64,000 nucleotides of DNA from Mytilus galloprovincialis. Its lineage: Eukaryota; Mollusca; Bivalvia; Mytilida; Mytilidae. Location of the stretch: assembly GCF_965363235.1 (NCBI RefSeq), contig NC_134838.1, forward strand, positions 5,585,001 to 5,649,000, written 5' to 3'. Shown here piece after piece: positions 1-37,407 of the stretch. Below the pieces are notes generated by a model that saw only the letters and a program-made list of their open reading frames with translations, was not told the origin of the DNA and searched no databases. The position numbers and the translations under genes are program-made. Position 1 is the stretch's first letter, and each line of letters opens with the position of its first letter.

Positions 1-351
1 TAGCAGCACATGACATACAAATCTATGGGAGTGTGGATTAATCAGTACAGAGATTAATTCAATTACACAAATAAAATTATAGATTGCCTAACAATGTAAT
101 TTTAACACACTATTTAGTATGTAAATATAAGAATGTTTAAAATATTTACAAAATGATGAAAATAAACGCAATATTTCGCTAGACCAACTAGCTTTATCAA
201 GCGTGCATCTATCCAGGTGAAATCGGATGTAGATGATAAGAAACTTTTGCAGCTCAACGTCTATGTTGCACTGAACTGCCTTTAAAATAAGAAAATTGTG
301 CAGCTCAATGTCTATGAGCTCTTGCTAAAATGCTAAAATGCAAGAGTTCAC

Positions 352-467
352 TGCTGACCCCCTTACGGATCAATAGAGGGTTAATAACATATAGGAGATT
401 CGGCTTTTCGGCCTCATCCTTTAGGGATTTTACTAACTGACTATTGATGCGTAATGGGTCAGTAGCA
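352..467. repeat. foldback (MITE-like) element
   Basis: The arms at 352-376 and 441-467 are inverted copies of each other (left tgctgacc..atcaatag, right ctattgat..gtcagtagca) with few mismatches. The spacer holds a small GGC/GCC hairpin around 400-412. There is no coding capacity. It is probably a short non-autonomous DNA element; the target duplication is not clear. Confidence 0.5.
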
Positions 468-476
468 AATCAAATA

Positions 477-1540
477 AACTATATTATTTTCAATTCGCTC
501 AGTTGTAGGTACTTCGGGACTGACATAATTTATAAAAAACCCTTTTTTTTATATATATAAACTGTCCGTTTATAAATGTTTAAATTATCGAGAATTTAAG
601 GTTTAAACTATGTGTGGCAAATTTGACCTTAGATTGAATATTTTAGGTCCTTTTTGGTAATATTGCACTTCAGTTCAATTGTTTCGATTCATATAAATCC
701 ACACATTGTGTTTTGTTTCTTTCATTTTTCAGTGTTTTGTTGTTAGCGTTTGTCTTATCATCGTATAACTAATTGTTGACGGTTTTCGATGGACTTATTA
801 TTTTTGAGTTCTCCCTTTGAGGCTTCTCTCTTTTTGTCGGTGTGTGATGCTTGATTTTGTTGCCACTGCGTTTCATAAATTAAATTATATACATCATTTT
901 ATTTACTTTTACTAATTTTGAAGCTTTGAAATAAGTGTTGTCTCTTAACTTTAAAAAGAGAAGACTTTTTGTCCCTTAACAAACGATAAAGACATTCTTT
1001 ATTTGAAATTTTAAATATATTGAATAATAAGACCTATGTTTATAGTATGTTTAGGATGGAGATTTTTTTCTAAAAAATAATTATTTACTGAAATTTATCG
1101 AACTATGTAAACGCTTTCTTTCTTTAAACTATACCAAGGTACAAACATGTCATCATCATCCAATTAAACAGTGTTCATTAGAGGCTATTTTGTAATTGTC
1201 GGATAATTGAGCATAGTTTTCATTGATCTCTAAAATATTCCACTTTTAAAACAAAATCGGTTTCAGAATAATATTTATAATGTCCAATTATTGAACTATA
1301 TTGCTGGTTATCTTCATTTCAAACTGTTTGCCAAATTTAAGAAATTATTCTTTCATTTCATGATCTATGATAATTTTAACATGGGAAGAACTTATATTTT
1401 CGATATTTTATACTAAGCGTTTAATAGCCACATGAGATGCAAAATATTTCAAACAAAGATTTATTCATCCAACACTTTCCCCCGCTTACACAATTTACAC
1501 ATTTTTCTCATGTAATATATGTACCGGTATAAAAGTAATA
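477..1540. other. AT-rich stretch, nothing recognised
   Basis: No ORF of note, no clear repeat structure and no RNA gene seen. Positions 1-351 are likewise featureless apart from two near-copies of 'gcagctcaa.gtctatg' around 251 and 301. Confidence 0.4.
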
Positions 1541-2365
1541 TGTGATATGATTGCAAACGGGAGAATGTTCCACCAGAGACCAAAAAGCGTTGAAGTCAGC
1601 AAATTAAAGTCTCAAGATCCGCATAGCAATCTGAAAAGGCCCCTAAATGACAAACATAAAAATTCTAACGAGAAAATTAAAAAGATAGACGACATACAGT
1701 AACAATCGAAAACCACTGAACTACTGTTTTCTGACATGGATCAGGCACACGCAGAATGTAGCAGAATTAAATATTGGAGGGAGCCTACCCCTCTCTATAG
1801 TGGTTCATCAGCATTACACCAGAACAAACTATTTGAAGACGAACCATCAAAATAAAATCGGCATATGTAAACAGGTAAGAATATTTATATGTATAGGACA
1901 GTAAGTTAAATATAAAATATACACATTAACTTTTAGGCCAATCCATGATTCCTCGTAATAATATAACTCGGTATTATAAGATGTTATAAGAGGATATTTT
2001 TATTTATTTTATCAAGAGTTCTGAAAATAAAATTATTACAAACAAATGAGTTGTTGATAAAATTTATTTACATTTTACTTGTATAGCAAATACAACAATG
2101 GCGTATAAAATAAAATACAACATTGCACACATGTTCATTTAGCTCTCGCACTATGTTTAGCGCAAACGGGAAATGAAAGTACATATACCTTATGATCTGT
2201 AATGTAAATATAAATCATCTGACACGTGATTACAAAAAGACAAGCCAGAGAATTGCAAACTGTGACTTTCACCGGCCTATTCATGGTGTACAATTTAGTC
2301 TATTTCAAAAACATGAATGAAACTGACACAATCTTCTTGAACATCCATCGCATTTTTTTTTTAAT

Positions 2366-2371
2366 TTTATT
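2366..2371 (-). terminator. candidate polyadenylation signal (AATAAA) for the 2495-2812 gene
   Basis: AATAAA on the - strand about 125 bp past the stop codon of the small gene. It is a common hexamer in AT-rich DNA, so support is weak. Confidence 0.35.
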
Positions 2372-2494
2372 TAATTCGTTACCTCCAGCGGTCGCATTTT
2401 ACAAATCTCATTTAATTGTCTCATTTTTTTAAGTTGAGCGACACAGCTTTTCTGGATTTGGTTCTTCGCCAATTGATTTAGAGACTGTAATCAT

Positions 2495-2812
2495 TCAATT
2501 TGGTCTTCGTTTAAAGATCGACTTAGGTTTTTCTTTAGATTTCATTTTACTCTGTCTATTGTCATAAACTAATGGCAATATTTCACACTCGTCGATCCAT
2601 TGCACACGATAGCTCCCGCCTTTTATGTATTCTATTCGGTGTAAACATCTTCCTTCGACTCCAGAGCAATTTCTGTTTATTGGAAAAGCAGTCATGCTAG
2701 AACCATCACACTTCCCGGTTTTGTCTGTCAATGAATTATAATTAACATATTTGCAATCTATTTCACACGTAACCGTTTTGAAAATATCCGAACAATTTGG
2801 TAAATAAGCCAT
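2495..2812 (-). CDS. small uncharacterised protein, paralogue A (105 aa), intronless
   Basis: I do not recognise this protein as a named family. Its reality is supported by a diverged paralogue at 40612-40953 on the same strand. Both begin MAYLPN.SD.F.TV..EID.KY and share the C-terminal block RVQW.DECE..PL..DNRQ followed by a basic KS.....KSI.K segment, while the middle differs in sequence and length. Residues are conserved in two separate blocks and the start codons coincide, which argues for selection on the protein. No signal peptide or membrane segment is seen; it is likely cytosolic or nuclear. RVQW fits the broad RVxF/W docking pattern for protein phosphatase 1. KSIF.K here corresponds to a canonical SILK motif in paralogue B. 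A TATA box lies 74 bp upstream of the ATG. Function is unknown. Confidence 0.68.
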   Translation of the reverse strand: MAYLPNCSDIFKTVTCEIDCKYVNYNSLTDKTGKCDGSSMTAFPINRNCSGVEGRCLHRIEYIKGGSYRVQWIDECEILPLVYDNRQSKMKSKEKPKSIFKRRPN

Positions 2813-2885
2813 TTGCTAGCAAACTCCTGTTTAATTTTCTGTTGAGAAATTAAAATTTGTAAATCAACTCTAAGAGTGTATAATG

Positions 2886-2896
2886 CCTTTATATAT
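2886..2896 (-). promoter_or_regulatory. TATA box of paralogue A
   Basis: Reads ATATATAAAGG on the - strand, 74 bp before the ATG. The paralogue at 40953 has TATATAAAGG 76 bp before its ATG. Matching motif, orientation and distance in two diverged copies make this the best-supported promoter element in the window. Confidence 0.7.
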
Positions 2897-2925
2897 GTTA
2901 AAACATTGTTTGCTTTCATTCTACC

Positions 2926-2963
2926 TTTTGGAAACGTGCCAGATTAAATTCTCCAATCACCAC
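2926..2963 (-). promoter_or_regulatory. conserved upstream block of paralogue A promoter
   Basis: On the - strand this reads GGTGATTGgAGA..., then TGGCA.., then TTTCCAA. The same three words in the same order lie upstream of the other paralogue at 41073-41116. GATTGG is an inverted CCAAT box here. The block starts about 30 bp upstream of the TATA box. Confidence 0.5.
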
Positions 2964-2968
2964 CGATT

Positions 2969-3340
2969 ATAACAAACAAAAAAAAAAACAAAAAAAAAAA
3001 ACGCCTTTCTGTAAATAAAAAATGTGAAGTTGACTTCTACAGAAACGATTTAAATTGACCTAAAAATGCAAATGCCCAAAAGTTATTAACGAAGATCAAA
3101 TAAATGAATATATAGAAAATAGTCTTCCAGTGTGATTAGATTTATTCCCTTTCAAAAATATACTGTTCAACAAATCATGTAACAAGTTTTCAAAGAAGCC
3201 TGACTTTTCAATGATGTTACTAACTTTTCGTTCTTTATGATGTCTTGACGATGTTTTTTTTATTATTAAATTCCCCGTAATACTCCAGCATATACATTAC
3301 TTTATCGATGCTCAAACGTTGTATACAGGGTCGAGTTAAC
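2969..3340. other. intergenic, A-rich runs, no gene seen
   Basis: Contains A-tracts around 2975-3001 and otherwise unremarkable AT-rich DNA. At 3340-3500 the sequence resembles a common mussel repeat ('ggcatcagtagtttaccgac'). Confidence 0.35.
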
Positions 3341-4779: not shown

Positions 4780-4879
4780 CTACGTAATAGTACAATCCAA
4801 GATGGCGGTATGCCATGAGTCTAAGTATATGATATGCTTTTTCTTGTTTTAGATACATAGTGTATGTAGTGTGTGTCAT

Positions 4880-5316
4880 AATCATATTCTAAGCCTTCCG
4901 TTTTCAAAAGTTTACAACACTATCGGAAATACATCTAGAATAATCATATTCTAAGCCTTCCGTTTTCAAAAGTTTACAACACTATCGGAAATACATCTAG
5001 AATAATCATATTCTAAGCCTTTCGTTTTCAAAAGTTTACAACACTATCGGGAGTACATCTAGAATAATCATATTCTAAGCCTTCCGTTTTCAAAAGTTTA
5101 CAACACTATCGGGAATACATCTAGAATAATCATATTCTAAGCCTTCCGTTTTCAAAAGTTTACAACACTATCGGGAATACATCTAGAATAATCATATTCT
5201 AAGCCTTCCGTTTTCAAAAGTTTACAACACTATCGGGAATACATCTAGAATAATCATATTCTAAGCCTTCCGTTTTCAAAAGTTTACAACACTATCGGGA
5301 ATACATCTAGAATAAT
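4880..5316. repeat. 62-bp minisatellite, seven copies
   Basis: Seven head-to-tail copies with a constant 62-bp period, each starting 'aatcatattctaagcc' and ending 'acatctag'. Copies are nearly identical: the third has ctttcg for cttccg, and 'cggaaat' changes to 'cggga/gt' in later copies. Such homogeneity suggests recent expansion or gene conversion. No coding capacity. Confidence 0.95.
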
Positions 5317-9998: not shown

Positions 9999-11517
9999 AG
10001 CTTACCTGGCCTAAAAGGCCATGTGAGCTTTTCTCATCACTTGGCGTCCGTCGTCGTCGTCGTCTGTCGTCGTTAACAATTTTTCAAACATCTTCTCCTC
10101 TGAAACTACTGAATGGATTTGAATGAAACTTAAAATGATTGTTCCTTAGATTATCCTGCACAAAGTGTGTGCTTCGATTTTTGATCCGTCAAAAAACATG
10201 GCCGCCGTTACTTAAAATAGAACATAGGGGTCAAATGCAGTTTTTGGCTTATATCTCAAAAAAGGAAGCATTTAGAGCAAATCTGACATGGGGTAAAAAT
10301 GTTCATTAGGTCAAGATCTATCAGCCCAGAAATTTTCAGATGAATCAAACAAACCATTGTTGGGTTGCTGCCACTTAATTGGTAATTTTAAGGAAATTTT
10401 GCAGTTTTTGGTCATTATCTTGAATATTATTATAGATGAAGATAAACTGTAAACAGCAAAAATGATCAGCAAAGTAAGATCTACAAATAGGTTAATATGA
10501 CCAAAATTGTCAATTGACCCCTTAAGGGGTAAATGTCCTTTAATGACAATTTTTCACAATTTGTTCATCATATTTGCTAACTTTAAAAAATCTTCTCCTC
10601 TGAAACTACTGAATGGATTTGGATGAAACTTAGCATGATAGTTCCTTAGATTATCCTGCACAAAGTGTGTGCTTCGATTTTTGATCCGTCAAAAAACATG
10701 GCCGCCCTTACTTTAAATAGAACATAGGGGTCAAATGCAGTTTTTGGCTTATATCTCAAAAACGAAAGCATTTAGAGCAAATCTGACATGGGGTAAAAAT
10801 GTTCATTAGGTCAAGATCTATCAGCCCTGAAATTTTCAGACGAATCAAACAAACCATTGTTGGGTTGCTGCCACTTAATTGGTAATTTTAAGGAAATTTT
10901 GCAGTTTTTGGTCATTATCTTGAATATCATTATAGATAAAGATAAACTGTAAACAGCAAAAATGATCAGCAAAGTAAGATCTACAAATAGGTTAATATGA
11001 CCAAAATTTGTCATCTCACCTTGACCTCATTTTCATGGTTCAGTGGTTATAGTTAAGTTTTTGTGTTTTGGTCTGTTTTTCTTATACTATATGCAATAGG
11101 TCTACTAAAATTGGTGTATAGAATGATTGTAAGGTGTACATGTCTAGCTGACAGGTGTCATCTAACCTTGACCTCATTTTCATAATTCAGTGGTCAAAGT
11201 TAACTTTTTTAGTTTTGGTCTATTTTTTTAATACTTTATGCATTAGGTCAACTATATTTGGTGTATGAAAATATTTTATGATCTATATGTCGGTTACGCA
11301 GGTTTTATTTGAACTTGACCTCATTTTCACAGTCCATTGCTAAGTTTTAAGTGTTTGTGTTTTGGTCTCATTTTCTTTATTTATAAACAGTAAGTCATAT
11401 ATATTTGTAATATTGAAGAATTGTTAGCTGTACATGTTTGCCTGGCATGGTTCAATATGTTCAATAAGGCGTTGTTTACCAGGTGAGCGATTCAGGCTCT
11501 TGAGAGCCTCTTGTTTT
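9999..11517. repeat. bivalve-type 1.5-kb repeat with internal 500-bp duplication
   Basis: Starts 'agcttacctggcc' with a GGCCT/AGGCC hairpin, then 'tggcgtccgtcgtcgtcgtc'. Ends with 'accaggtgagcg' and a hairpin GGCTCTTGAGAGCC. The outermost 'gcttacctgg' and 'ccaggtgagc' are inverted. From 10091 a segment is repeated exactly 500 bp later at 10591 with high identity. A third region holds three copies of 'ttgacctcattttca' near 11030, 11170 and 11318. I recall this family as abundant in bivalve genomes; its class is unknown to me. It has no useful ORF. Confidence 0.7.
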
Positions 11518-16800: not shown

Positions 16801-18900
16801 TAATTCAAATTGTATGAGTAGGCTAATGTATCTGTTAAATATGCTATGGTGTACCTGCACTGCTCAAAAACTCGCTGTTTTAAAAGGAGAAGTAGTGTTG
16901 TCTCAACTGCTTTTACTCGTGTTAATAATGGTTCAAATCCGATAAGTTATAATCAGTGATCAAGCCTCAAAGAGTGACGCCTTCTCTTCCTACACGAGCA
17001 GTCACATGGTCGGGGTTTATTACCAAATACCGCAAGAAAAAAGATTGTTGCTCATAAATTATGTGAAGTGATAGCTATTGTTTGTGGATACTAAAACGAG
17101 ATTGTAGCAAGCTACGATAAATACAAGCTTGGTATATGATAGCTTCTTTGTAGTAGCCAAAAAATTAAAACATGTTATTGTGAGATTTCAAAAATAGGCA
17201 TGTGTTGATTTTAGTTTCTGGTGCATGATTTTTAATTATTAGTTGTTTTCGCTTTTAACTAGCTTTCAGTAACTGCGAGTACTCTCAAATCGTACTTTTG
17301 TGCTAATTTGGCCATTTAATCATATAGCCCCTTATTTTGTTGATTTTGTATTTACATTGTGTCATGGATCAAATGTTTCGTTCAGTGTATGTTCACTTGT
17401 TTTTTTTTAATTTTTTTTTTATTTCTTTTGAATGAGTTAAGCAATTTCAATTGATACTTTATAGTATGTCTTTCTATGTGGTCATGTTACACTATTGTTT
17501 CAGGTAAGGGTGAAGGTTGGTACCTAGTAAAATGTCTAAACCCACTGAATTTCTTTGCACCTGTCCAAAGTCAAGAATCTGATGTTCAGTGGTTGTCGGT
17601 TTTTTTATGTGGTTCATAAATGATTCTCGTTTCCCGTTGTTTTTTTTTTTTAGATTAGACAGTTGGTTTTCCCGTTTTTACACTAGTAATTTTTATGGGG
17701 CCCTTTGAAACTTGCTGTTCGGTGCGAGCAAATGCTACGTGTGAAAGACTATATTTTGACCTATAATGATTTACTTTTACAAATTGTGACTTGGATGAAT
17801 TGGTATCTCATTGGTACCTATTATGAGTTTATTTAACACATCTTCTTATATCTACAAACAAAACAACAGGTTAAAACCTATTAAAAACTTAGGTTTAAGT
17901 TTAATTTTCATGTTGCTCACATGTACTATTGTACATGGCATTATGTTTACCAAGTCTATGTGTTGTTCGTTCGTTTATTGGATGGAAGTTTGTCTTTATG
18001 GTAGTTAAAAAAGAGGCGAAAGATACCAGAAGATCATTCAAAGAGAGGCGAAAGATCCCAAAAGAACATTCAAACTCATAAGTCTAAAATAGAAACCTAA
18101 ACTGACAACGACATGGCTTAATAAGGAAAAGACAAATAGACAAACAGTAGAACACTAAATACAACATAGAATACTGCGGACTGAGAAACATGAACCTGAT
18201 CAAAATCTGTGATCGAAGTGCTGTAAAGTTGTTATCAAATAACTTAAGACTTGGTAAACAAGCTCATTCTGATGCGAAATTGATTTAAATATATGACTAT
18301 TTTGAAAATAGATCCAAGTTTACGCTGAACTTGGAAATGTTAGATGGCGTGAGTGGGACAACTATCACTATGTGTTCCAAAGATGATGATTTGTCAAACA
18401 AAGTTCTTAAAGGGAAGTAACAAAAGTCGTGATGCTATAACCTGCTATTCAAAGCCAATGACATCGGTGAAATTGAATTTTATCAATAGATAGAGTTAGA
18501 TATCGTATGTTCGGTCGTATGTTGCTTAATTAAAAACGAAAAAGTTAATAATTAAATTTTATACATTAATATGATGCTTCTGTGTGTCATCTTTGTTGAA
18601 GGTTTATTGTTAAAACTAGTTATAAAACCAAAAATACTATTAGCCTTTAATGTGTATTAAGTGTCAATATTTACTTATTTTAGTCGGTTATCATATTCAA
18701 ATACGTATCAAGTGATATTGAAAATATACCATTAAATAATAAATCAAGATGACGCATTAGACTAATGACGTCACGTAGTAATTCATGTTTTGAAAGTAAG
18801 TAAGAAGTGGCAATATAATTCATATGTCGTAAAAAATATACAGCATCATTGTCTACAGAAAATACAGAGACAAACAATAACAAACAAGACGTTACGCCAC
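13830..18900. repeat. segmental duplication, unit 1 (about 5.1 kb)
   Basis: Collinear with 20530-31340. Matching words in order: 'gcacgaatgcttttagct' (13858/20539), 'aggacggggacaaaac' (14247/23044), 'cattaaacccaaacaaattc' (14843/23174), 'ccgtctagttgtctcaaa' region (15980/24770), 'aaggtccgatttggcat' (16428/25799), 'aaaaggagaagta' (16886/26425), and 'aatgacgtcacgtagtaa' (18765/31217). No ORF is shared, so the unit is probably non-coding or a decayed locus. Unit 1 carries its own tail insertion near 17995-18200 (- strand). Confidence 0.75.
18766..18773. promoter_or_regulatory. CRE-like palindrome TGACGTCA (unit 1)
   Basis: Perfect 8-bp CRE/ATF palindrome inside an 18-bp stretch also present at 31217. 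Whether it drives transcription is unknown; no gene is seen downstream. Confidence 0.3.
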
Positions 18901-19690: not shown

Positions 19691-20100
19691 GTTTGCTCTT
19701 TTACATTGTAAAAGAGGGACGAAAGATACCAGAGGGAGAGTCAAACTCACAAATCGAAAATAAACTGACAACGCCATGGCTAAAAATGAAAAGGCCAAAC
19801 AGACAAACAATAGTACGCATGACACAACATAGAAAACTAATAATAAGCAACAGGAACCCCACCAAAAACTACGGGATGATCTCAGCTAACATTGTAAACA
19901 TAGAACCATTGTCCTCACGGAATGTGATTTTCAACCTGGTAAATACCCCTTCCCTAAAACTGACAATTACATGTAAAACAAAAAGAAAGAAAAAGACCTA
20001 ATAACAAACAATAGTCTACAAAACACAACATAGAAAACTAAAGATTGAGCAACACGTACCCCAGTGAAGGTTGATATGAAGTGCTCTGAAAGAGAAAGAG
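19690..20100 (-). repeat. two adjacent retroelement 3'-tail fragments
   Basis: On the - strand both copies contain 'ttagttttctatgttgtg', with 'gtttgactctccctctggtat' in the longer one. They are the tail family of the RT fragment at 25125. The 109-codon frame on the + strand is an artefact of this repeat. Confidence 0.65.
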
Positions 20101-20280
20101 ATCCTGATCTTATCATTGATATGGTCATATTAATGAATTAACTGTTTCAATAACTAAGGCTTTTCTACCCCAGGAATAGATTACCTTAGCTGTATTTTGG
20201 CAAAAATTTTAGGAACTTTTGTCCTAAATGCTCTTCAACTTCGTATTTTATTTGGCCTTTTTTTTAACTTTTTTGGATTC

Positions 20281-20330
20281 GAGCGTCTCTGATGAGTCTT
20301 TTGTAGACAAAACGCGCGTCTAGTGTGAAT
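20281..20330 (+). ncRNA. degenerate hammerhead-ribozyme motif
   Basis: Has CTGATGA, stem II GTCT/AGAC and the ACGCGCGTC tail of the intact motifs at 31.4 kb. The conserved GAAA after stem II reads AAAA. G12 is the catalytic general base, so this copy should be inactive. It sits in the repeat 'ttggattcgagcgtc' upstream of duplication unit 2. Confidence 0.7.
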
Positions 20331-20926
20331 ACAAAATTTAATCCTGGTACCGGTATCTACATTTAACACCGTCGTGTTGATCATGCTATTCTATAGCTCA
20401 CAGTGGGGGCAATGTAATTAAAAATTGTAGTACGTACTCTGAAAACAGATTTTTATCGCCACTTACATTGATTATAATATCCATACTAGTACATGTAGTT
20501 GAATTACAAGTCTATATTACTATTACTATTATTATCCAGCACGAATGCTTTTAGCTTAATTCGTCCTTAACATTGTCCATTGGAGATGTGCTGATTTATA
20601 TTGTCGTCTTTGAACATATGTTAGACTTGTTAGTTGAATATTGGATTTGAACTAGCTTCAGTTACTGTGGTTATTCTTAGATTGGTACCTTGTGTATTTT
20701 GTCTGTTATTTTGAGATAAGATCTAATCAGAAGGGACAAGAGTCATTTTCAACTGATTTGATATTTCGTTCGAATGACACAGGTGGTTTTGTGAACTGAG
20801 GAGCTGTCACAAACATATTTTACAACAATAAACTGAATAAATCCACGAGCCTGCAGTCAAGTGGTTGTGTTTTCGTTTTAATCTATTAGCTTAAATCAGA
20901 TCATTTGTTTTATACTTTCAATGATT

Positions 20927-22980: not shown

Positions 22981-24667
22981 GTTTGTTTCCCTCGGGCCAA
23001 TTATACCGTAATTTATGGTAAGGATTTTGCTCATTATTGAAGGCAGGACGGGGACAAAACCTTTGAATTTCATGCCTTTTCCGTTTATTGACATTCCCAA
23101 GTACGTAGGGTTTTATTAACAAAAGGAATGTTTTATGTGTCTTCTTTGTTTAAAGTGTATCGTTAACATTAGTCATTAAACCCAAACAAATTCAGCCTTG
23201 ACAGACATTTCTACTTTGAGTGTCAATGTTAAACCTTACTTATGTCGGTTATCATATTCAAATACTTATCAACTGATATCGCAAATAAGTTCGGATATAA
23301 TAAATCAAGATGAAGCTCTTATGTGGTGACTTATTACAGTAGCTAAAACACTTAATAAAAAAAATCACAATAAAAAGATAATAAGAGATAGTCAAAATCA
23401 TAAGTCGAAGTAGAACAAACATAATAACATAGAAGCAAACATTTCACGCAAATAAAAATTCAATGACTCGTTATTTTTAACTAGTCTTCTTTAAATATAT
23501 ATATATAGCAAGAAGAGACATTTCGATAAATATTACACAAATCAAGGTAACACTACCAAATTGCATGAGATCCTAAAGGTGAGATACCGTATGCTATCAG
23601 ATTATTTCATGGCATGGCTCGAGGACTGATCATACATGCGATATGAAAAATGATATGTTATGATCTTTTTATCATATGCTTCAACACTGGAGAAAAATAA
23701 CAGATTCATATATTGATCCATTTACGTGGTTTCCAAATAGAAGTTCAAAGAGTGAAAAGTACACGGACGTCGGACCCCAATTTAGTACTTTCGAAATGAA
23801 ATCTTTTTATCATATGCCTCAACAGAGAAGAAAATAATTTTAATGTGGACGAATCAACAACAACAAAAAATCAGCAATATGCATAATGAACACTGTTTGG
23901 TAAAGTCAACTTTTTTAAAGTAACTTTCTAAATTATGTTTGAAACTTTTTAAAAATGCATTTATTTAATAATTTGTTTGTCTTTTTTGTTTTTGTTTTTT
24001 TTTTTTTTTATTATTATTTTACACAATATACTTTCCAGTACCCTAATAATTGTTTTGTACACTACTTTGTTATGTTTTTCACTGAAAATGTAGCATTGAG
24101 GTGTATTTTCCGGAATTTGCCGAGTGTCACCGGAATGCCATGCGATAACGTAACGGAAAGGCATGTGATAACAGTCGAAGCATGTGATAAACTTTTCATA
24201 TCAGCCCGCTAAGCACCAATTCGAAAAATATGGAATTTACGTTAATCTAATGCTATTATCATACAGTAAAAATCATGTTATTTAGTCTTAATATATGATA
24301 ATAATTTTTATTGGAAATTGAAAGGAAAAAAAAGTTATCCACGTTCCTTTCATTGTCTTGATTTAAATACAAATATTTTGTTAAAGTAGAATGATTTCTA
24401 AGCATAATGATTATTGTGTCGTCGGGCCAATTATACCGTAATATATGGTAAGGATTTTACTCATTAGTTCAATTACCCTTCTTTTTTTTTTATCAAGACT
24501 TTAAACAAAAAGCCTGCACGTCAAACTGAAACCAAAAAAAAAAGACAGAACACGAATATAGGGGAACGAAGATTATTGTCAAAACATGATAGGGATGATG
24601 GCAGCGCTTTTCATGTCTATGTAACAGTTTAGTAATCAATAGTTAGCAAAGGTTCCAGGCTTATAAT

Positions 24668-24712
24668 TTGATACGCCAGACGCGCGTTTCCTCTACACAA
24701 AACTCATCACGT
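24668..24712 (-). ncRNA. degenerate hammerhead-ribozyme motif
   Basis: The - strand has GTGATGAG in place of CTGATGAG (C3 lost), an eroded stem II, then GGAAACGCGCGTCTGGCGTAT. Loss of C3 and of stem II pairing predicts no activity. It lies inside duplication unit 2; unit 1 has no copy at the equivalent place. Confidence 0.6.
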
Positions 24713-25105
24713 TTAGAAGTGTTACATCTTTATGACCAAGGTGTGTTTATTTGACATGCCACCATTCCATCGTCTAGCTGTCTCGAACATACACTTCTAA
24801 TTGTGTAAGTGATGGGATATTGATTGTAGATTGAGTGTTTACTTGTTAATATTGACTTTTAAAAATCGGTAAGCAGTATTTGGTAACACCTTATATTTGG
24901 TTTAACATGTAAATCAATCCCAGTGTTTACTTATGAAACTAGAATTATTTAGGATAATAAGTAATAAATAAGATTCGTAGCAGGAAATCAATAACGTATA
25001 AAAGAATATTACAACCAGAAGCGCTACTTTAGTTTTCCAATTTTATTCATTAAAATACATAACAGTTAATATTTAATATTTATACAATGTCATTTATGTC
25101 TTTTC

Positions 25106-25775
25106 TGTTAATTGCTGTATCATTTTGGTCTCAAACCACATCTTCTTTGTATATTTACGATATCTTAACTTACATCTAGAAATTGACAATGAGGGTTGGT
25201 TGGAAACAAAACTTTACGACAAAAAAGATGATTTCAGCTTTCCACTTGTGAACTTTCAATTTCTAAGTAGCAATATTCCAGCAACACCTGCATATGGGGT
25301 ATATGCATCCCAACTTATACGATATTCCCGTGCTTTTATTTCCTATCATGATTTCATGAAAGAGGGTTACTGCTCACAAGGAAGCTATTAAACCAAGAGT
25401 TCCAAATGGTGAAGTTGAAATCATCCCTTCGTAAATTTTACGGACGCCATCACGAGTTGGTTGACCGTTATGGAATAACCGTTTAACAGATGATATCGGA
25501 TATGTTTCTTACGTCGTAACTACAATCCACCTTCCCTTTTATGAATGTGACCTACCGAATTAGACTATTTACCGGATTTGTTATAACATGAACAAGACGA
25601 CGGCTGCCACATGTGGAGCAGGATCTGCTTACCCTTCCGGAGCACCTGAGATCACCCCCAGTTTTTGGTGGAGTTCGTTTGTTTATTCTTTAGTTTTCTA
25701 TGTTGTGTTTTCGATTTATGAGTTTGACTGTCCCTCTGATATCTTTTGTCCCTCTTTTACGATTGAATGGCTTCG
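25106..25775 (+). mobile_element. 5'-truncated reverse-transcriptase element with its 3' tail
   Basis: An insertion in duplication unit 2: unit 1 lacks it between about 16350 and 16400. The coding remnant 25125-25391 has YLNLHLEIDN.GWL.TKLYDK, VNFQFLSSNIP and AYGVYASQLIRYSRA, the C-terminal portion of the same broad RT class as the Penelope-like copies but a different family. After stops and a shift it continues with 'KFYGRHHELVDRYG'. The tail (25588-25775) holds 'ccttccggagcacc' and 'tttagttttctatgttgtg', which recur as isolated tails at 11650, 12640, 17995 and 19690-20100. This links those tails to an RT-encoding parent. Confidence 0.7.
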
Positions 25776-27077: not shown

Positions 27078-29830
27078 AAAAATGAGAATGGAAATGAGGA
27101 ATGTGCCAAAGAGACAACGACCCGACCATAGAACAGACAACAGCAGAAGGTCACAAACAGGTCTTCAATGTAATGAGAAATTCTCGCACCCGGAGGCGTC
27201 CTTCAGCTGGCCCCCAAACAAATATATACTGGTTCAGTGATAATGAACACCATACTAAACTCCAAATTATACACAAGAAACTAAAAGTTAAAATAATACA
27301 AGACTAACAAAGGCCAGAGGCTCCTGACTTGGGACAGGCTCAAAAATGCGGCGGGGTTAAACATGTTTGTGAGATCTCAACCCTCCCCCTATACCTCTAG
27401 CCAATGCAGAAAAGTAAACGCATAACAATACGCACATTAAAATTCAGTTCAAGAGAAGTCCGAGTTTGATGTCAGAAGATGTAACCAAAGATAATAAACA
27501 GAATGACAATAATACATAAATAACATCAGACTACTAGCAGTTAACTGACATGCCAGCTCCGAACTTCAATTAAACTGATTGAAAAATTATGTCTTCATCA
27601 TATGAATATCAGGCACAATCCTCCTCGTGAGGGGTTTAGTATCATACCATCATAACATATATGAGAAGAACATAACCCGTGTCATGCCAACAACTGGTTT
27701 ATTAATAATAAATGTGTTTAGTTCCGATGCAAAGACCCTATAAGTGAATCAATATTAACGCCAAAATATGCAATCTTTAATGACCTGACAACAGTATCGT
27801 AACTATATCCCTTCTTAATAAGTCTATTTAAAGGTTTTGTTAGCTTCTGAGGTGAATACTGACATTTTTGTGCTTTATAAAGAATATTTCCATAAAATAT
27901 TGGATGTGAAATACCTGAACGTATAAGAAGTCTGCATGTTGAGCTATATTTACGAATGATGTCCTTATACCGATGATAAAATTTAGTAAATGTTTTGACT
28001 AGTTTGTGATATCGAAAACCCTGGTGTAATAATTTTTCAGTAATACATAAATTTCTCTCGTTAAAATCTAAAACATTGTTACATACACGAGCGAATCGTA
28101 CAAGTTGAGATATATAAACACCGTAAGATGGTGACAAGGGAACATCACCATCTAAAAATGGATAATTAACGATAGGAAATGAGAAATCATCTCTTTTATC
28201 ATAAATTTTAGTATTTTAATTTTAAGCCTTTCGTTAATGATATATATATCAAGATCGAGGAAAGGGCAGTGGTCATTGTTAGTATTAGCTTTATTTAAAG
28301 TAAGTTCAACAGGATAAATTTCTTTAGAATACATTCTGAAGTCGTCATTATTGAGAGCTAAAATATCATCCAAATATCTAAAAGTATTATTAAATTTATG
28401 TATCATATGTTGTTTCGATGGGTCTTTGCTGATTTTTGTCATAAATTGTAACTCATAACAATACAAAAACAGGTCCACAATAAGTGGTGCACAGTTAGTC
28501 CCCATTGGAATTCCGATAACCTGACGATAAATGGAATCTCCAAAGCAAACAAAAATGTTATCTAGTAAAAATTCAAGAGCAGATATAGTATCAAAGCATG
28601 TCCAATTGACATAGTTTTTTGTTTATTGCTACTGAAAATGACCTAAAAGAGTTTGAACATATGTATTCACATTCTGACTTTTTAAATGCCCATTTAATTA
28701 TGTGTGTGAATTTTTTCTTAATGAGAATGTGAGGCAATGTGGTATATAGGGTAGAAAAATCAAAACTTTGAACAGATTCAAAATCACCAATATAAGCATG
28801 CAATTTATCAAGTTCTTCCAACGAGTTTTTGACACTCCAAAAGTAATTAATTACACTATTTTCGAAGGCCTTATTTGAACAATTTATTATCAGGTTTTTG
28901 ATTGTACCAAGTGTACTGGTAAGAAGAATAGATAATTTAGTAATGGAACAATGGCTTGAAAACGAAATAAATCTATAGTTGTAAGGTGTTTTGTGTAGTT
29001 TCGGAAGCCAATACATAGTTGGGACTTTCATTGTTTTTGGTTCTGCTTGTAAAGCGGTAGCTAAAAGTTTATGTTTGTTACAGATGTCGTTTTCTGAAAA
29101 TGGAGTCAGTTGGAATGTTGGTGAATTGGTGATTTCTTTTTGTAGAACCTCAATGTAAAATTTACGTCAAACAATAATAATATTATTAGCAGCTTTATCG
29201 GCCGGGACAAAAACAAATTCCTTGGCTAGTTCTTTTAGTTGATGTTTGATACGAGAAATAGGTTTATTGTGGTTATTGTTTAGAGTAAAATGTTCTTTAA
29301 AATGTTGAATACGTATATCAACAATGTTTATTACTGAATTAAAAAAAGGGTCCAAAGATTTTTGTCAGCTTGTTCCCGTTTTATCCATTTCAAACAGTAA
29401 GTACGGAGTGAGTCGTGGATGATATCACGACACTCATTCCAATTAATAGTTGAAAGGGGGGGGGGGGCGATATTTAGGTCCTTTACTGAGGAATGATTTC
29501 AACTCTCGGTCTTGAACGATGTTAAGATCTCATGTTATAACATGGGAAATGGGTCCATAAATGTATTTGGAATTACTGCAATTACATGAAGTAGGTGTAT
29601 TTTCACTGATATTAACATCTTTACACAATTGGCTATAATTAAACACAAATTTCCGGGTAGATTTCTTGTAAATATAACAAATAAGAGGGAACTCAGTATT
29701 ATCAAAATATCCAGGAATTTGTTCTTTAACAGAATGGTAGTTAAAAATACCAGCAATATTAACAAAATCAAAACCTTTATTGACATACTTTATTTTAATC
29801 AAATGTTTTTTAAGATCTAAATATATGAGA
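27078..29830 (-). mobile_element. Penelope-like retroelement copy 2, longer
   Basis: The 3' terminus is at 27078-27090, with the same tail as copies at 20933 and 39146. The 5' side extends about 0.75 kb beyond copy 1. It was inserted in duplication unit 2 between modules homologous to about 17.1 and 18.2 kb. The 5' boundary is approximate. A run of ten or more C residues on the - strand (29458-29468) shifts the reading frame. Confidence 0.75.
27718..29802 (-). pseudogene. Penelope-like ORF copy 2: N-terminal domain, RT and C-terminal domain, broken
   Basis: Reading 5' to 3' on the - strand. 29802-29530: N-terminal part with ICYIYKKS and TPTSCNCSNS..Y...SHVIT, then a TGA. Next comes a frame-disrupting C-run. 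29355-29167: LAKEFVFVPADKAANNIIIV, then a stop. 29031-28591: WLPKLHKTP and FDFSTLYTTL, then a shift. 28505-28152: MGTNCAPL and FRYLDDILALNN. 28137-27718: SPSYGVYISQLVRFAR to GISHPIFYGN. At least two nonsense codons and two frameshifts are visible. No GIY-YIG nuclease is recognised in what remains. It is not functional. Confidence 0.75.
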
Positions 29831-30184
29831 TGATAAACAAAACGTAAATGGCATAATGTTTCCAGTCTCTGTGTTGCTCGTCCATTCGTCTCGTGTCGGG
29901 CGGATATTTTCGCTTATGATTGTTTAGATTATGAATTTGTTACCAAATAACCTGAAACTTGGTACCCAACTTTATTATGATGTGAAATTAATAAAACATA
30001 TGACAAAATAGTTAAAAGTTTTTGAGTATCAATGAACTCAGACATGTTAGATTGCGTGTCCTCTGGCTACTTTCATATTGTATTGTCAAATTTACAATCC
30101 TAATTTTAAACAACTATAAATATATTTTATAAGGTTATTTTCACGTTTTACTACAAATGAAAGAGGTACATGTCTATTTGGAAA

Positions 30185-30400: not shown

Positions 30401-31217
30401 GTGAACAAAACAAACAGACATAATAGAACATTCATCTTTTCACTTAAGACACACCAATTATTTATTACTCGTGGCTTGCAAACCAAACTTGCTTTTGAAC
30501 AATTTGCAAGCTATCGGGTTTTTTTCGCTGAGCTATAATTAAATTTGCAGATCTCACAATGTTTATGGGGAGTTTATTCAAAACCACTTTATCGATGATA
30601 CTGCTAAAGGAGGTTTCCACCTCGAGGGTTCCCTCTCTCTCTCTCTATCGAAATTTTAGGGTCCTCAATCCTCAATCTTTTCAACTTTGTACTTTATTTT
30701 GACATTGAACCGGCGAATCAACATATGGCGGGATTGAAAGTAGTCATCTATATATCTTGAATAACAAACAAGTACATAAAGTAAATGAGCGTTATGGAAT
30801 ATATTAATGTTGGAGGCAATCAAGAAAACATGGAAACACAATGTCTTAAAGAAAAAGTTGTGTGTAAGAAATATTCCTATCATTCAAGTCATAATGGCAT
30901 CCGTAATGGTGACGAACAATCTATAACGAAACTAAATAAATTTGATTGCAGCTTGCATCACTTAAATACATTTTTCAGTCGCTATTTGTATTTCATACGC
31001 GAACAAAATGCTTCTGTGTGTTATCTTTGTTGAAGTTGCCTGGTTAAATTTCGTTATTAGATTTATTAAATCAAAAGTTGTAGATGTCACAAATATAAGC
31101 ACAGACAGTTTAAGTGTCAATATTTACCTATTTTGTCGGTTATCATATTCAAATACTTATCAGCTGATACTGCAAATACACAATACAATAATAAATCAAG
31201 ATGACGCATTAGACTAA

Positions 31218-31225: not shown

Positions 31226-31408
31226 CGTAGTAAATCATGTTTTCAAATGTAAATATGGACGAAGTGGGAATCGGAGTCATAAGTCGTAAAGGAACATACA
31301 TCGTTGGCTACAGAAAATACAGAGACAAATAACAACAAACAATATATTGTTTCATTAAAGATGCTTCGTTTCATTAAGGTACGATTTCAAAATAAAGATT
31401 TCATCAAT

Positions 31409-31456
31409 GTATGTCACTGATGAGTCTTTTGTAGACGAAACGCGCGTCTGGCGTAT
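31409..31456 (+). ncRNA. hammerhead ribozyme, type I, complete core (copy 1 of tandem pair)
   Basis: Every conserved core element is present. Stem I is GTATGTCA (31409-31416) paired with TGGCGTAT (31449-31456), 8 bp with G-U pairs. CTGATGA is at 31417-31423. Stem II is GTCT/AGAC (31424-31427, 31433-31436) with loop TTTGT. GAAA is at 31437-31440. A very short palindromic stem III CGCGCG follows, then TC with the predicted cleavage after C31448. ACGCGCGT is self-complementary, so activity may need a dimer, as known for short-stem-III hammerheads. Hammerheads have been reported in Penelope-like elements and animal retrozymes; Penelope-like copies lie within 2 kb. Confidence 0.85.
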
Positions 31457-31555
31457 ATACTAAATTTAGTCCTGGTATCTATGACGAGTTTATTTACAAC
31501 CACTGGGTCGATGCTCTTCGTACTTTATTTGACCTTTTTAACTTTTTTGATTGGA

Positions 31556-31601
31556 GCGTCACTGATGAGTCTTTTGTAGACGAAACGCGCGTCTGGCGTA
31601 T
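31556..31601 (+). ncRNA. hammerhead ribozyme, type I, complete core (copy 2 of tandem pair)
   Basis: Stem I is GCGTCA (31556-31561) with TGGCGT (31594-31599). CTGATGA is at 31562-31568, stem II GTCT/AGAC, GAAA at 31582-31585, stem III CGCGCG, and predicted cleavage after C31593. The distance to the cleavage site of copy 1 is exactly 145 nt, so co-transcription could release a 145-nt RNA with ends suited to circularisation. Unit sequence downstream of copy 2 restarts ('tggcgtatata.taaatttagtcctggtat') but stops before a third ribozyme. Confidence 0.85.
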
Positions 31602-31757
31602 ATAGTAAATTTAGTCCTGGTATATATGACGAGTTTATCTAAACAGTTTGTTATGGTACTTCATCAAGGAAACTATTACATGTAAACACATTAAAGTCGC
31701 CAGATGCAAACACCCAGGTAGTGAACTACCACTGAATTATATAAACTCTCAAACAAG

Positions 31758-32068
31758 TAAGGCAGCAACCATTTGATTTTCTGGGGGGGGGGGGGTGGGG
31801 GGGGGGGGGCTATGGTTTTTTTTTTCTGGACAAATTTTTTTTTTCTAGACAAAAACAATGTATTTTTTTCGCGACAAGTCGAAAACAATTTTTTTCTTTC
31901 AATTTTAGCATTACATATAGTGGCAGCTGAGGGTGAAACAAACATTTTTTTTTTCTCAGAATCAAAAACAAATTATTTTTTTCTCCAAAAACTGGAAACA
32001 AACTTTTTTTCCAAAAAAAACCATAGCCCCCCCCCCCCCCCCCAGAAAATCAAATGGTTGCTGCCTAA
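31758..32068. mobile_element. Harbinger-like MITE with long G and C runs
   Basis: Element 31761-32065 is flanked by 3-bp TAA repeats (31758-31760 and 32066-32068). Inverted ends begin GGCAGCAACCATTTGATTTT, then a run of G (two runs of about 13 split by T) and 'gctatggtttttt', mirrored by a C run on the right. A TWA duplication with GG-starting ends fits PIF/Harbinger. Between the ends are repeats of 'ttttttttctggac'-like words. Open frames across it (105 codons on +, 84 on -) are low-complexity artefacts. Confidence 0.75.
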
Positions 32069-32574: not shown

Positions 32575-35500
32575 ATGGCAAGGTAAGACATTAATAAATA
32601 TTCAAATAAGTAATATAAATATTGATGGTGATAATATTAATTTCATGTTTAAGGGTTTGCATTTAAATAGTTGAAAAGAATTGTCAAGTTTTCCTTTTAC
32701 CTAAATTTCAGTCTTGATCAGATGATCTGTTCCTTTTCTACAGAAGGACACGCTTGTGTAATAAACAAGAGCACGTTGAAAGGAAATTATTTTTAGCTGA
32801 TCTGAAATTATTCATTAAAACTAAAAGAAAATATCAGGAAAAACAACTGCAGCTCCATTGTGTGGATTTGTTATACTATAATTCAATTAGGATGAATGGT
32901 ATTCTGTAACGTATATCCAGTTTGGCTATAAAATTGTTTTTTCCCTTTCTTAGTTCGATTAAATCATTTTTCGAACGACAATTGGTTTGATCAATTTACA
33001 CTTATTTTAGTAGTTGACGCTCATTTCTTTTTCCATAATATTAAATATGCAATTGGTTATTTTTCTGAATTTTAATTTGCATGGAATCAATAACAAGATT
33101 GAAATTTTATCAGATATTTGTAGCCGTAACAAATATATTTCTACGCGTTTATTAGATGACGAAGAGCTTAAAGTGATATGGCTGCTTATAATGCCAGAGT
33201 TGAAATTGGAAACCATAGATGAATTGAACTGGGAAAAAAAGCATAATTATTAGAGTACATGCTAACTGAAAAACATGAATTTCTCACTAATGATACGATA
33301 GACTCTACCCGGATGATGAAGCACCTGTCAAGGCATGGGTGACAATTATAAATTACAGACTTGTACAGTGAATATGATCTGCACATCCAACCGCCACGAG
33401 TATACTCAATTTTTGACCATCAAATAAATCTGAAAATACATCACAGTTACAAATATACCTCCTTATTGTTCCAAACTTTTTTTTATGCAGCCAATTTCAA
33501 CTACTGATAACTGCAGGATTACTGTTTGTGTTTACTACAGCAGTACCAAAAACTTGTAACAAACGGTGTTACCCTGGCAATGATTGTTTCCCGTCCTTGA
33601 CGGAAATTTCAATGTTCCAGCATTTAATTGATGGTTACGTTGTACTCCCGTCGAACAACACATACACAGATGTTATAAGTATGCACAACAAATTATTTAC
33701 AAGGTAATGTTAAAAAACATAAATATTTAAGTTATAGTATTTTCCTGCCGTAGAAACTAGAGAAAAAACAGTATTTATTAGTAGTTTTCATTTCTCTGTC
33801 TCTATGATATCGTTTTGTGTACACTATTCAGTTGAAGGAAATCAATTTAGGAGCTCTGTGATTGGATGAACGAGTACGAAATATTTGTTTTCATTTATTG
33901 ATGAAGTATTTTAAAATGGATTAAAAACTTTGAAACTCATAAAAATGTTTTATTTGGACCTTCGAAAACGCTTTTGATTTTTCATTAATATAACCTATAA
34001 TATAATGACGGTGTGCATGGATACTATCAATGAGTTTGTAAGGAAGGTGCCCATATTGTCATTTGGATCATTTTTAAAACCGAATAATAAAATCTCTCGT
34101 TCTCACTTAACTTTCTTGGGCGGATTTTTATAACAAAAAGTAGCTAATTCAGATAATCTCAGTATTACCGCTTCTTGTGACAAAATACTACAGTTTTCCG
34201 GACGGGCTTAAAAACGTAAGGAGCTGATAACATTTATGTAGCTATAACCAGAAGAATTTCATATCAATCTATGGGACTATAGTGTAACCATTATTTGTAA
34301 GGATAAGGCATAAATCTAAATTAGTTTGACAATAAGAACAATATGGTGTAGGGATCTATATTTCAAATTGAAATGTACACTATGATAAACAGTAAATTAC
34401 TAATATATACATATATAATCATAAAATTAATAAAAGATACGTTTACAGGTTTCCAGCAATCGTTGTCATGGTTCTTTCAACGGACGACATCAAACAGTCG
34501 ATGTTGTTTGCCAGGAAATTCAACCTGCACGTGGTCGTGAAGTCGTCTGGTCACGATTATATTGGTCGATCAAGTTGGTCTGGTAGTATTCAGATAAACT
34601 TGGGATACATGAGAAAAATGAATGTACAGTTAAGTTCATCAAGATCTGTGGACGGTGAATTAACAGTCGAAGGTGGAGCAAACTGGCAAGAGATTTACCA
34701 AGAAGTATGTATGCATATATATGTCTAGTTAATGAAGACCACCATCGTGCATACAAAACTATATGCTTTGATAATACTAATTATTGTCATAAACCTGTGT
34801 GTTATTTTTCAGCCATATAAGAAACTTACATGATCCTAAGATACGATAGTCGGATAAATAGCATCACATAACAGACTAGGAAAGTTTTCAGTAGTGGCTG
34901 TGTCAAAATGTCGAAAAATATAAGACCGATTTCTTCTCTCCTCTTTATAATTATATTAATTGTAGCAATAAACAAGTTTTTAGATAATCATATTTTGCTT
35001 TGTTTTGCAGGTAGATAAATATAACAGAGTTGTTGTCGGTGGCAGCTCTCAGACAGTGTCCCCTAGTGGCTTCACACTAGGTGGAGGACATAGCATACTG
35101 TCCCGGATGTTGGGATTGGCAGTTGATCAAGTTTTGGAAATGACAGTTAGCTTGGTTTTTTTTTATCTCTTCTTTTAGAACAAAACAAAACTAAGTTGGA
35201 AAATATTACCGAATGCACATCACATCCAACTATTAACAAGAGAGCATTTGATATATTTAAGAATCGTCATAATTATATCGGTCCCGTGTCCGAAACAAAT
35301 GTTACATACGTGGTAACTGCAGTTTTCCTTGTTTGGTTAGGATTTTAACTTAAACAGATGCATGACATTTTGGATTCTAGTTACCAATCTTTTTATACTC
35401 CATAGAAAGAAGGAAATCACAAAAGTACAGAACTCTGAAGAAAATTTAAAACGGAAAGTCTTTAATTAAATGACCAGATCAAAAGCTCAAACACATCACG

Positions 35501-37407
35501 AAACGAACGGAGAAAAACTGTAGAACATAAATTCCATGCTTAACACTTTTTTGATAAATCGAGTATGCCATTAAGAATAGTTACACATTCATACATGTGA
35601 AATCACTAAATAATTTATAGTATATGTTTTAAATTGTCCTTGTAAACATACTTGTATTTTGAAACCTTGAACTAATCACAACAGGCCATATATGCTTTGC
35701 ATTTATTTTTATTTCCTCTCTATAAATACTAGTATGCAGCTTTGGGACCATGTATTTTGGCAGTGTCCACTTGTTCCAAATATGCCTACATCGGGACATG
35801 AAACTTGAAAACAATTTTCGTCTTATGAAGTATGTAGATGGAATCAACAAAATCAATTTGTGAAAAAAACATGAAACTTCCAGATAAGATTCAGTATGCT
35901 TTTTAGTTCGTATATACATATATTATTTATTTGTATCTGAACAGGTCATAACAGTGAACGGGAGTATTATTAAGTGCACCAATCATATGTCACATGTAAC
36001 TAATCCAGATGGCAGCTTTTCTACGTCTTCAGACAATTCACTCTTTTGGGCTCTTAGAGGAGGCGGTGGGGGAACATTTGGTATCGTATCATCGTTTACT
36101 TTCAAACTTTACAAGGTCAAACATCAATATGTCAAGGTTACTATGTCTTATCCGTTATCCATCAATGGAAATTCCTCAGTTGGACAAGAGGTAATGCTAT
36201 TTTATTCAAATTTTGTTAAAGGAATGCCTAACGAATGGGGAGGATATTCCTTTCTCTCAAATGCACAACAGTCCTCTAAAACTAACGACTCTGTGATCGG
36301 CACTTTAGGGTTTTTGTATTGCCACTATGGTGGATGGAATGATTCCAGTAGGAAATACATGGATTTATGGAATGATTTCCACCCCGAATGGAGATTGGAA
36401 TACACTGTTCGGAACATCTCTACCTTCTGGGAAGGCTTTGGAAGCGTTATGACTGACAGTCCATGGAGCAGAGTGTATGTCACTGGGTCGTTTATACAGG
36501 AGGCGGGAATGGACACAAATTTTCTCGACTTTATTGTTAATACTATGACACGGCCGATTAATGCCACTAACCCGCTGTATGCCTGTGTTGGAACACATTT
36601 AGGAGGTAGGTTTTATCAGTTTAATCTTTTGTGTAACTTCAGTTAGTTTTTTAGTTTGATTAATTTGATCAATTTACCATTTACGTCCTACGCATGGAGT
36701 GCAAACTTTTTCTGTCCTATTTCGCAAATATGAAAACGGGAACAAAAAACTGAGCACGGAAGGCATTCGAAACCAAAGAAAAATTATGCGCTAACTTTTA
36801 CATGCCTATTTAGGTGTAATATAATTAGAAGAAATAATGGTTATATTGCAATATTATAACATTTTTTAAAAATTATACAGCTCTGAGTAACATTCCAATG
36901 TATGTTAAATAGTGAGACGTTTTTAAAAAGGGGCAGAAGAACCAAGGAGACATTCAAAGTAATAAGTGGAAAAGAAATTGACAACGGGTATAATAAGGAA
37001 TCTTTGATACTCAAATTTAACCAGTTTTCATCAGCTCTCTGGTCTTGAATGTCTTGAATGCAATAACAATTTAACAGATATAAACTGTTTTCTTTATAGG
37101 AAAAGTATCTGATTTTAGTGATACTCCGACCCATCCAGGTTTTAGACATGCCAGATTATGCCTTGGATGTGTTGTGGCGATACCTGACATCAAACGTGAG
37201 GACTTCTATATTAAAAAAGGAAAAGAACTCAGTCAACGCCTAATATCATACGGCAATGGAACATACGTTAACGAAGCTGCAGAATACATGCCTGATTGGC
37301 AACAAAACTATTGGGGACCACATTATAGACGGTTGTTATCGATAAAGAGAGAGGTTGATCCGGATAACATTTTGACATGTCATCATTGTGTCGGTTCTGA
37401 ACTTTGA
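32575..37407 (+). CDS. secreted FAD-linked oxidoreductase, berberine-bridge-enzyme-like, six coding exons, 526 aa
   Basis: Exons: 32575-32582, 33491-33703, 34449-34704, 35011-35145, 35945-36605, 37100-37407. All introns are GT-AG and phases join exactly (1581 nt with stop). The 8-nt first coding exon (ATGGCAAG before GTAAGA) is chosen because only it supplies the phase needed by exon 2; the ATG at 32552 does not. Residues 1-20 form a signal peptide. Exon 2 has CYPGNDCFPS and a VVLPSNNTY segment. Exon 3 has SSGHDYIG, with His109 as the expected covalent FAD ligand. Exon 4 has GFTLGGGHS; the cysteine that forms the second flavin bond in plant BBE aligns with Ser172, so single attachment is predicted. 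Exon 6 ends with the BBE domain (YVNEA, DPDNILTCHHCVGS). The family oxidises small alcohols, sugars or alkaloids with O2; the substrate here is unknown. A 3' AATAAA is at 37430. Confidence 0.92.
35405..35545 (+). repeat. mussel interspersed repeat inside intron 4 of the oxidoreductase gene
   Basis: Third, truncated copy of the family at 30185 and 32080 ('gaaaatttaaaacggaaagtc', 'acacatcacgaaacgaacgg'). It lies in the 799-bp intron between exons 4 and 5. Confidence 0.6.

Follow-up and report, generated by a model that had tools for sequence, protein, structure and literature searches.

A shortened hammerhead retrozyme copy in the Mytilus galloprovincialis genome and a sequence motif that mussel retrozymes have in common with a Penelope-like element

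The closest described relatives of the locus analyzed here are the non-LTR retrozymes of mussels. Their description reports ~5,000 type I hammerhead ribozymes in two subfamilies, repeats of 350–390 bp, abundant circular RNAs circularized by RtcB, and monomeric self-cleavage at ~0.1 per min (PMC7229834, Cervera and de la Pena 2020); its authors named Penelope elements as candidate machinery, on grounds other than those given below. A 2020 review records no conserved motif in metazoan retrozymes that would reveal the retrotransposon machinery (PMC7761336). Within the limits of the papers accessible to us, a literature search found neither a shared motif nor a fixed end described for animal retrozymes, and a text search of the literature for four motif strings returned no paper. 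Metazoan non-LTR retrozymes as a group are characterized by the absence of an LTR, a primer-binding site, and a polypurine tract, and by target-site duplications that, where they occur, exceed 4 bp. Plant LTR retrozymes, as described in the same review, likewise yield circular RNA from paired hammerheads but differ by type III ribozymes, LTRs, and 4-bp target-site duplications.

Penelope-like elements form the second group for comparison. In the anole, reverse transcription begins internally, at two neighboring sites within an AC-rich stem-loop that lies 3' of the hammerhead cut; the enzyme requires the first 172 nt of the ORF region, and genomic copies end at the start sites as a 30–40 bp tail (PMC11167929, Frangieh 2024). 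In the rotifer Adineta vaga, Penelope elements occur as partial tandems that pair a full copy with a 5'-truncated one, target-site duplications may be missing, and unrelated sequence is possible between the repeats (PMC3846280). Mussel retrozymes resemble such elements in the short 3' tail past the hammerhead (anole), 5' truncation, and partial tandems, probably also in an internal start of reverse transcription, to which a 70-nt stem-loop held in common is added locally. Some Penelope insertions lack target-site duplications, of which the retrozyme loci gave no signal. Penelope-like elements, in contrast, code for reverse transcriptase (RT) and endonuclease, neither of which the retrozyme has, and their terminal repeats carry a minimal hammerhead without stem III.

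We analyzed a 64-kb stretch of M. galloprovincialis DNA (hereafter the window), where two hammerheads follow each other head to tail (Table 1). A first-pass annotation, made from the sequence alone, had placed two complete ribozymes here on the + strand, spaced by exactly 145 nt and cleaved after 31448 and 31593, all of which was confirmed. Rfam model RF00163, applied to the whole window, matched 31411–31454 (+) with 33.7 bits (E 1.4e-4) and 31556–31599 (+) with 32.5 bits (E 3.4e-4); for the local stretch only, the E values were 9.8e-7 and 2.4e-6, respectively. The covariance check on both strands that the annotation had proposed thus returned both ribozymes, but just below the gathering score of 34, which is why a default Rfam search of the 64-kb window at that score lists no hammerhead. 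A strict structural scan (core plus paired stem II, stem III, and stem I) found exactly two hammerheads in the window, both on the + strand, with none on the – strand and none in reversed controls. A loose motif (up to 3 mismatches) matched four places against 0.06 expected, the remaining two, near 20289 (+) and 24686 (–), being decayed relatives. A chance origin of the pair is ruled out by this excess together with the clean controls of the strict scan.

Table 1. Retrozyme and Penelope-like features of the window
Feature	Position	Strand	Evidence
Decayed longer copy of the retrozyme family, ribozyme core mutated	20110..20351	+	
Decayed ribozyme end fragment of the retrozyme family, ending ...GCTAACTAT	24639..24707	–	
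Penelope-like fragment of the motif-sharing family: RT part and 3' end, motif itself absent	25077..25759	+	
Decayed retrozyme body fragments without ribozyme, including part of the stretch absent from the 145-nt unit	30564..30699	+	
Whole retrozyme insertion, 5'-truncated, two ribozymes, usual 3' end of the family	31413..31638	+	
Hammerhead 1, 10-pair stem I, cut after 31448	31407..31458	+	RF00163, strict scan
145-nt unit between both cut sites	31449..31593	+	
Deletion junction, CCACTGGGTCGATGC joined to TCTTC	31500..31519	+	Alignment to full-length units
Hammerhead 2, 6-pair stem I, cut after 31593	31556..31599	+	RF00163, strict scan
3' tail, 45 nt beyond the second cut, ending ...GAGTTTAT like other subfamily B copies	31594..31638	+	

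The direct repeat that contains the ribozymes (31413–31496 and 31558–31641) is identical at 81 of 84 positions with an offset of 145, and the predicted cut sites, also 145 nt apart, match GTC ends. Both hammerheads are of type I with a stem II of four pairs. Six of the ten stem I pairs of hammerhead 1 use flanking DNA (31407–31412) outside the repeat. Stem III was first described as a self-complementary CGCGCG suggesting dimeric catalysis; in both copies it actually has two pairs, A-U and C-G, capped by a GCGC loop, and dimers are not implied because this two-pair type is reported to be active in monomers of invertebrate retrozymes, the published mussel data included. The G+C content of the 145-nt unit was 0.39, and no listed ORF of at least 70 aa spans it between the hammerheads. 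Folded as a circle, the unit was no more stable than shuffled sequence (117 of 200 shuffles equaled or exceeded its stability), and in its free fold the ribozyme is hidden by 9.5 kcal/mol. An 8-nt TTCATCAA repeat, starting ~21 nt past the 3' end of the copy, flanks the insertion.

From this anatomy, release of a 145-nt RNA would be expected to follow: in a transcript of the locus, cleavage by the two ribozymes would liberate it, and the host ligase (RtcB) could close it into a circle. We give roughly even chances to the reading that the anatomy stands while the locus is a silent fossil, never transcribed and yielding no 145-nt RNA in the animal. The three differences among 84 repeat sites, the damaged body, and the decayed state of the relatives in the window speak for such silence, whereas both ribozyme cores are intact and the published mussel retrozymes are highly expressed (PMC7229834).

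The features by which metazoan non-LTR retrozymes are recognized are present in the window copy—a type I hammerhead with stem III, G+C content below 50%, and many genomic copies—and its head-to-tail repeat agrees with the range of ~150–450 bp, standing at 145 nt just under the lower edge. We searched the M. galloprovincialis genome (1.385 Gb, 331 contigs) for head-to-tail pairs with a pattern of ribozyme 3' part, gap, and 5' part. At a spacing of 337–367 nt, 4,507 pairs were found (reversed control: 0), compared with 27 places at 130–160 nt and 27 at 161–191 nt; there was no peak near 145 nt relative to the latter, the single neighboring class compared. RF00163 gave 37 reported matches, 29 above the cut-off, among 74 scored of 224,653 first-look candidates. 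Viral contigs and bacterial and archaeal genomes, scanned by pattern, yielded 0 matches.

Full-length units of this genome, to which the window unit aligns, are 341–373 nt long and fall into two subfamilies, A ending ...CCTTTGATAACTAT and B (~365–373 nt) ending ...GATGAGTTTAT; the window copy belongs to B. Type I hammerheads, head-to-tail units, low G+C content, thousands of copies, and two ribozyme subfamilies are all as in the M. galloprovincialis non-LTR retrozyme. The retrozyme arrangement proposed initially was therefore borne out, and the window pair is one shortened copy of the published family. What had been announced as a possible new instance is new as one further, shortened copy and not as a family; in contrast to the published units of ~350–390 bp, it measures 145 nt through a private deletion.

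The ends of the insertions were compared across 37 mapped retrozyme loci, which are the best-scoring ribozymes, not a random sample, and all contain a ribozyme by selection; L064, with the same flanks as L038, was dropped. In 35 of the remaining 36 loci, the insertion ends 35–48 nt beyond the ribozyme cut, with 19 falling at 38–39; the exception is L040 at 27. Copies end ...AACTAT or ...GTTTAT, directly before TTACACCACTGGG or TTACAACCACTGGG, and the window insertion and the fragment at 24639–24707 (–) stop at one common end point. The 5' starts are scattered, no 14-nt interval holding more than 8 of the 36. The ends of L005, L040, L047, and L059 were read by eye, the tally of the ends comes from hand-entered numbers, and the BLAST start of L039 at position 1 is not a true end. 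No target-site duplication signal emerged at 38 loci, where the longest match averaged 5.03 compared with 4.91 for shuffled pairs.

Target-primed reverse transcription leaves copies of this kind, constant at the 3' end and freely truncated at the 5' end. The tail runs across the cut site, so the template was either circular or had not been cleaved at that site. Units within an array had a mean identity of 89.9% (30 pairs) versus 88.4% between arrays (831 pairs, segmental duplicates included); without the mixed array L021–L024, the 12 within-array pairs were clearly closer (88–97%). Copying round one circle therefore fits some arrays and not all.

A second Penelope-like family, with the same motif, was found via positions 25077–25486 (+) of the window fragment at 25077–25759, among 150 scored of 30,354 candidates. 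Its copy L073 has an open frame of 997 aa (183–3173) with weak Pfam matches, both below cut-offs, to GIY-YIG near the N-terminus (E 0.037) and RVT_1 (E 1.1e-4). Positions 111–180 of L073, which come after the preceding tandem copy and before the ORF, match positions 44–114 of the retrozyme unit with 80% identity over 71 nt (E 3e-13; alignment score 70 versus a maximum of 25 in 300 shuffles). Copy L084, on a different chromosome, carries the motif in the corresponding position and is 98.6% identical to L073 over 360 nt. These are the only two Penelope copies in which the motif was seen: among 20 further Penelope loci compared with L073:1–420, 18 had no match, L093 matched from 315 only, and L084 covered the motif. 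No hammerhead was found in the three copies of this family in which one was looked for.

The copies L072, L073, and L074 end ...CTCTTTTA or ...CTCTTGTA, and in the L073 tandem this end stands directly before TTACCACTGGG. Of seven window fragments that align with the 3' region of this Penelope family, four extend to its usual end (25759 +, 19709 –, 18040 –, 36925 –), and the other three stop earlier. The 3' fragments at 19709–19885 (–), 18040–18208 (–), and 36925–36986 (–) make this family a common dispersed repeat in the window.

The motif of the Penelope copy folds as a stem-loop. Across 31 retrozyme units, 668 of 711 cells (94%) hold a standard pair of this stem, against 38–50% in slid versions. 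Two stem pairs are changed on both sides between Penelope and retrozyme, from T-A to C-G in 29 of 31 units and from A-T to G-C in 27 of 31; these count as two events and not 56, since the retrozymes are related to each other. The lowest-energy fold of the subfamily B unit differs from the motif stem-loop.

These comparisons supply a motif of the kind that the review found missing, carried by a Penelope-like element of this genome whose RT frame is open. Judged by sequence, mussel retrozymes are probably non-autonomous partners of this element, carrying its 70-nt recognition stem-loop. The stem-loop (ACCACTGGGTCGATG...CCCAGTAG) lies downstream of the hammerhead; the Penelope enzyme would start just upstream of it on retrozyme RNA that is circular or uncut, go round at least once, and stop anywhere. 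With such an internal start the DNA copy would therefore always end 39–45 nt past the cut, and the cut would mark neither end of the insert. The retrozyme itself would be a recognition module joined to a ribozyme that is absent from the Penelope copies seen. The first-pass annotation had also mentioned Penelope-like terminal repeats: the window copy is not one, having no ORF between its repeats and a two-pair stem III, while the link to Penelope stands for the retrozyme family through the module and the end point held in common.

The 3' ends might instead be fixed by a LINE-type enzyme acting on an RNA that ends there, the shared motif being a relic of past exchange with no present role. An enzyme starting at the RNA end would give the same fixed 3' end and 5' truncation, and the 38 loci offer no target-site duplications by which to type the enzyme. 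We consider this unlikely in view of a structured motif placed identically relative to the ends of both elements, the both-sided pair changes, and the internal start of Penelope enzymes beside such a site, as shown in the anole study (PMC11167929).

A decayed RT of a different Penelope-like family lies at 27718–29913 (–) and 27599–27663 (–). This family, with its relatives L069 and L070, was rejected as the partner because a ribozyme was not found in it and its matches to the unit were weak and short. Many of its listed copies carry a 480-aa open RT part, which suggests recent activity. The N-terminal segment of L069 and L070 resembles GIY-YIG by eye, with no Pfam match. In the window copy (27718–29913) and L069, a TGA directly precedes RKFY, where the residue is usually Cys, and SECIS_1 candidates follow the RT with 29.9 bits in the window and 28.8 and 32.3 bits in L069 and L070 (cut-off 35). 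These features fit selenocysteine-coding Naiad-type elements.

Aligned with full units, the body of the window copy has one large gap of ~216–220 nt, between CCACTGGGTCGATGC and TCTTCGTAC; ATGC is present on both sides of the gap in full-length units. The deletion junction occurs at one exact place in the 1.385-Gb genome, and the two places with one mismatch read GATGCTCTGC and lack the joint. The window copy is therefore not part of a spreading 145-nt lineage. Of the 70-nt motif shared with Penelope, no more than roughly the first 16 nt remain, and the loss of most of that motif would explain why the 145-nt form is found once.

The 27 places at 130–160 nt, with mostly different junctions, amount to 23 distinct arrays when the segmental duplicates L022–L024 and the overlapping L026 are not counted. 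The script puts the joint at the 3' end in 11 of the 23 arrays, beyond it in 5 (including the window copy), and before it in 7; by eye the counts are 12, 6, and 5, as L020 and L029, placed before the 3' end by the script, run past it and stop there, respectively. At the 27 places at 161–191 nt, where the first 80 letters were read by eye, the joint falls at the 3' end 17 times, past it 4 times, and ahead of it 6 times. In 7 of the 23 short arrays, the strict rule is satisfied by both ribozymes. Two other arrays hold two consecutive copies of a short unit: L019 (144 nt, 139/144 identical) and L025 (154 nt, 153/154 identical). BLAST aligns no part of the unit interior (~45–95) with the full unit in L025 (1516–1823), where the ribozyme pair encloses other sequence. 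Units of subfamilies A and B are joined directly at the 3' end position in L018, L027, and L021.

A stretch complementary to GACGAAAC is present in 24 of 31 full units and in none of 7 short ones. A release of the ribozyme from a blocking fold through the deletion was considered and dropped, since the folding penalties overlap: 10.2 in full units (sd 3.1; 15 of 31 scorable), 9.5 in the window unit, and 2.6–10.7 in six other short units.

The deletion could already have been present in the RNA, a 145-nt mini-circle being reverse transcribed and inserted. The doubled units of L019 and L025 indicate that short units can be multiplied, but their joints lie at the 3' end and belong to a different class. 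The single exact junction, the single body copy between the ribozymes, and a unit deprived of most of the Penelope-shared motif make this origin improbable. A separate, spreading 145-nt retrozyme family, which the exact spacing and two intact ribozymes might suggest, can be dismissed with near certainty given the mostly differing junctions at 130–160 nt, 27 more places at 161–191 nt against 4,507 at full length, and the single window junction.

Among other features of the window, exons of a FAD-linked, berberine-bridge-like oxidoreductase were found at 34396–37407 (+) (FAD_binding_4, E 1.9e-10; BBE, E 1.4e-11), to which an ORF at 33417 without Pfam support may also belong. This gene had been placed about 1–1.3 kb from the ribozymes; it actually lies 1.8–2.8 kb downstream, and there is no evidence that its closeness matters. 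An inverted repeat beside the retrozyme (31760–32066), whose 40-nt arms contain long runs of G and C, could represent a small palindromic mobile element. Tandem repeats occupy 4878–5316 (62 bp, 7.1 copies, 98% matches) and 11009–11379 (147 bp, 2.5 copies, 77% matches).

Taken as a whole, the locus is very likely a small subfamily B retrozyme insertion with a shortened body, made by Penelope-type copying and shortened by a later local deletion. The insertion would have been reverse transcribed from a retrozyme RNA that was either circular or multimeric and uncut: a Penelope-type enzyme would have started just upstream of the recognition stem-loop (unit ~44–114), gone once round, and stopped early, leaving the 5' end just before ribozyme 1. 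The deletion most likely came later, in the DNA of the window locus, and the copy could hardly spread because most of the recognition stem-loop was removed. The window pair itself is one more copy among thousands, and the comparison across the family matters more: the motif, the common end point, and the conserved pairing make the question of how mussel retrozymes are mobilized directly testable.
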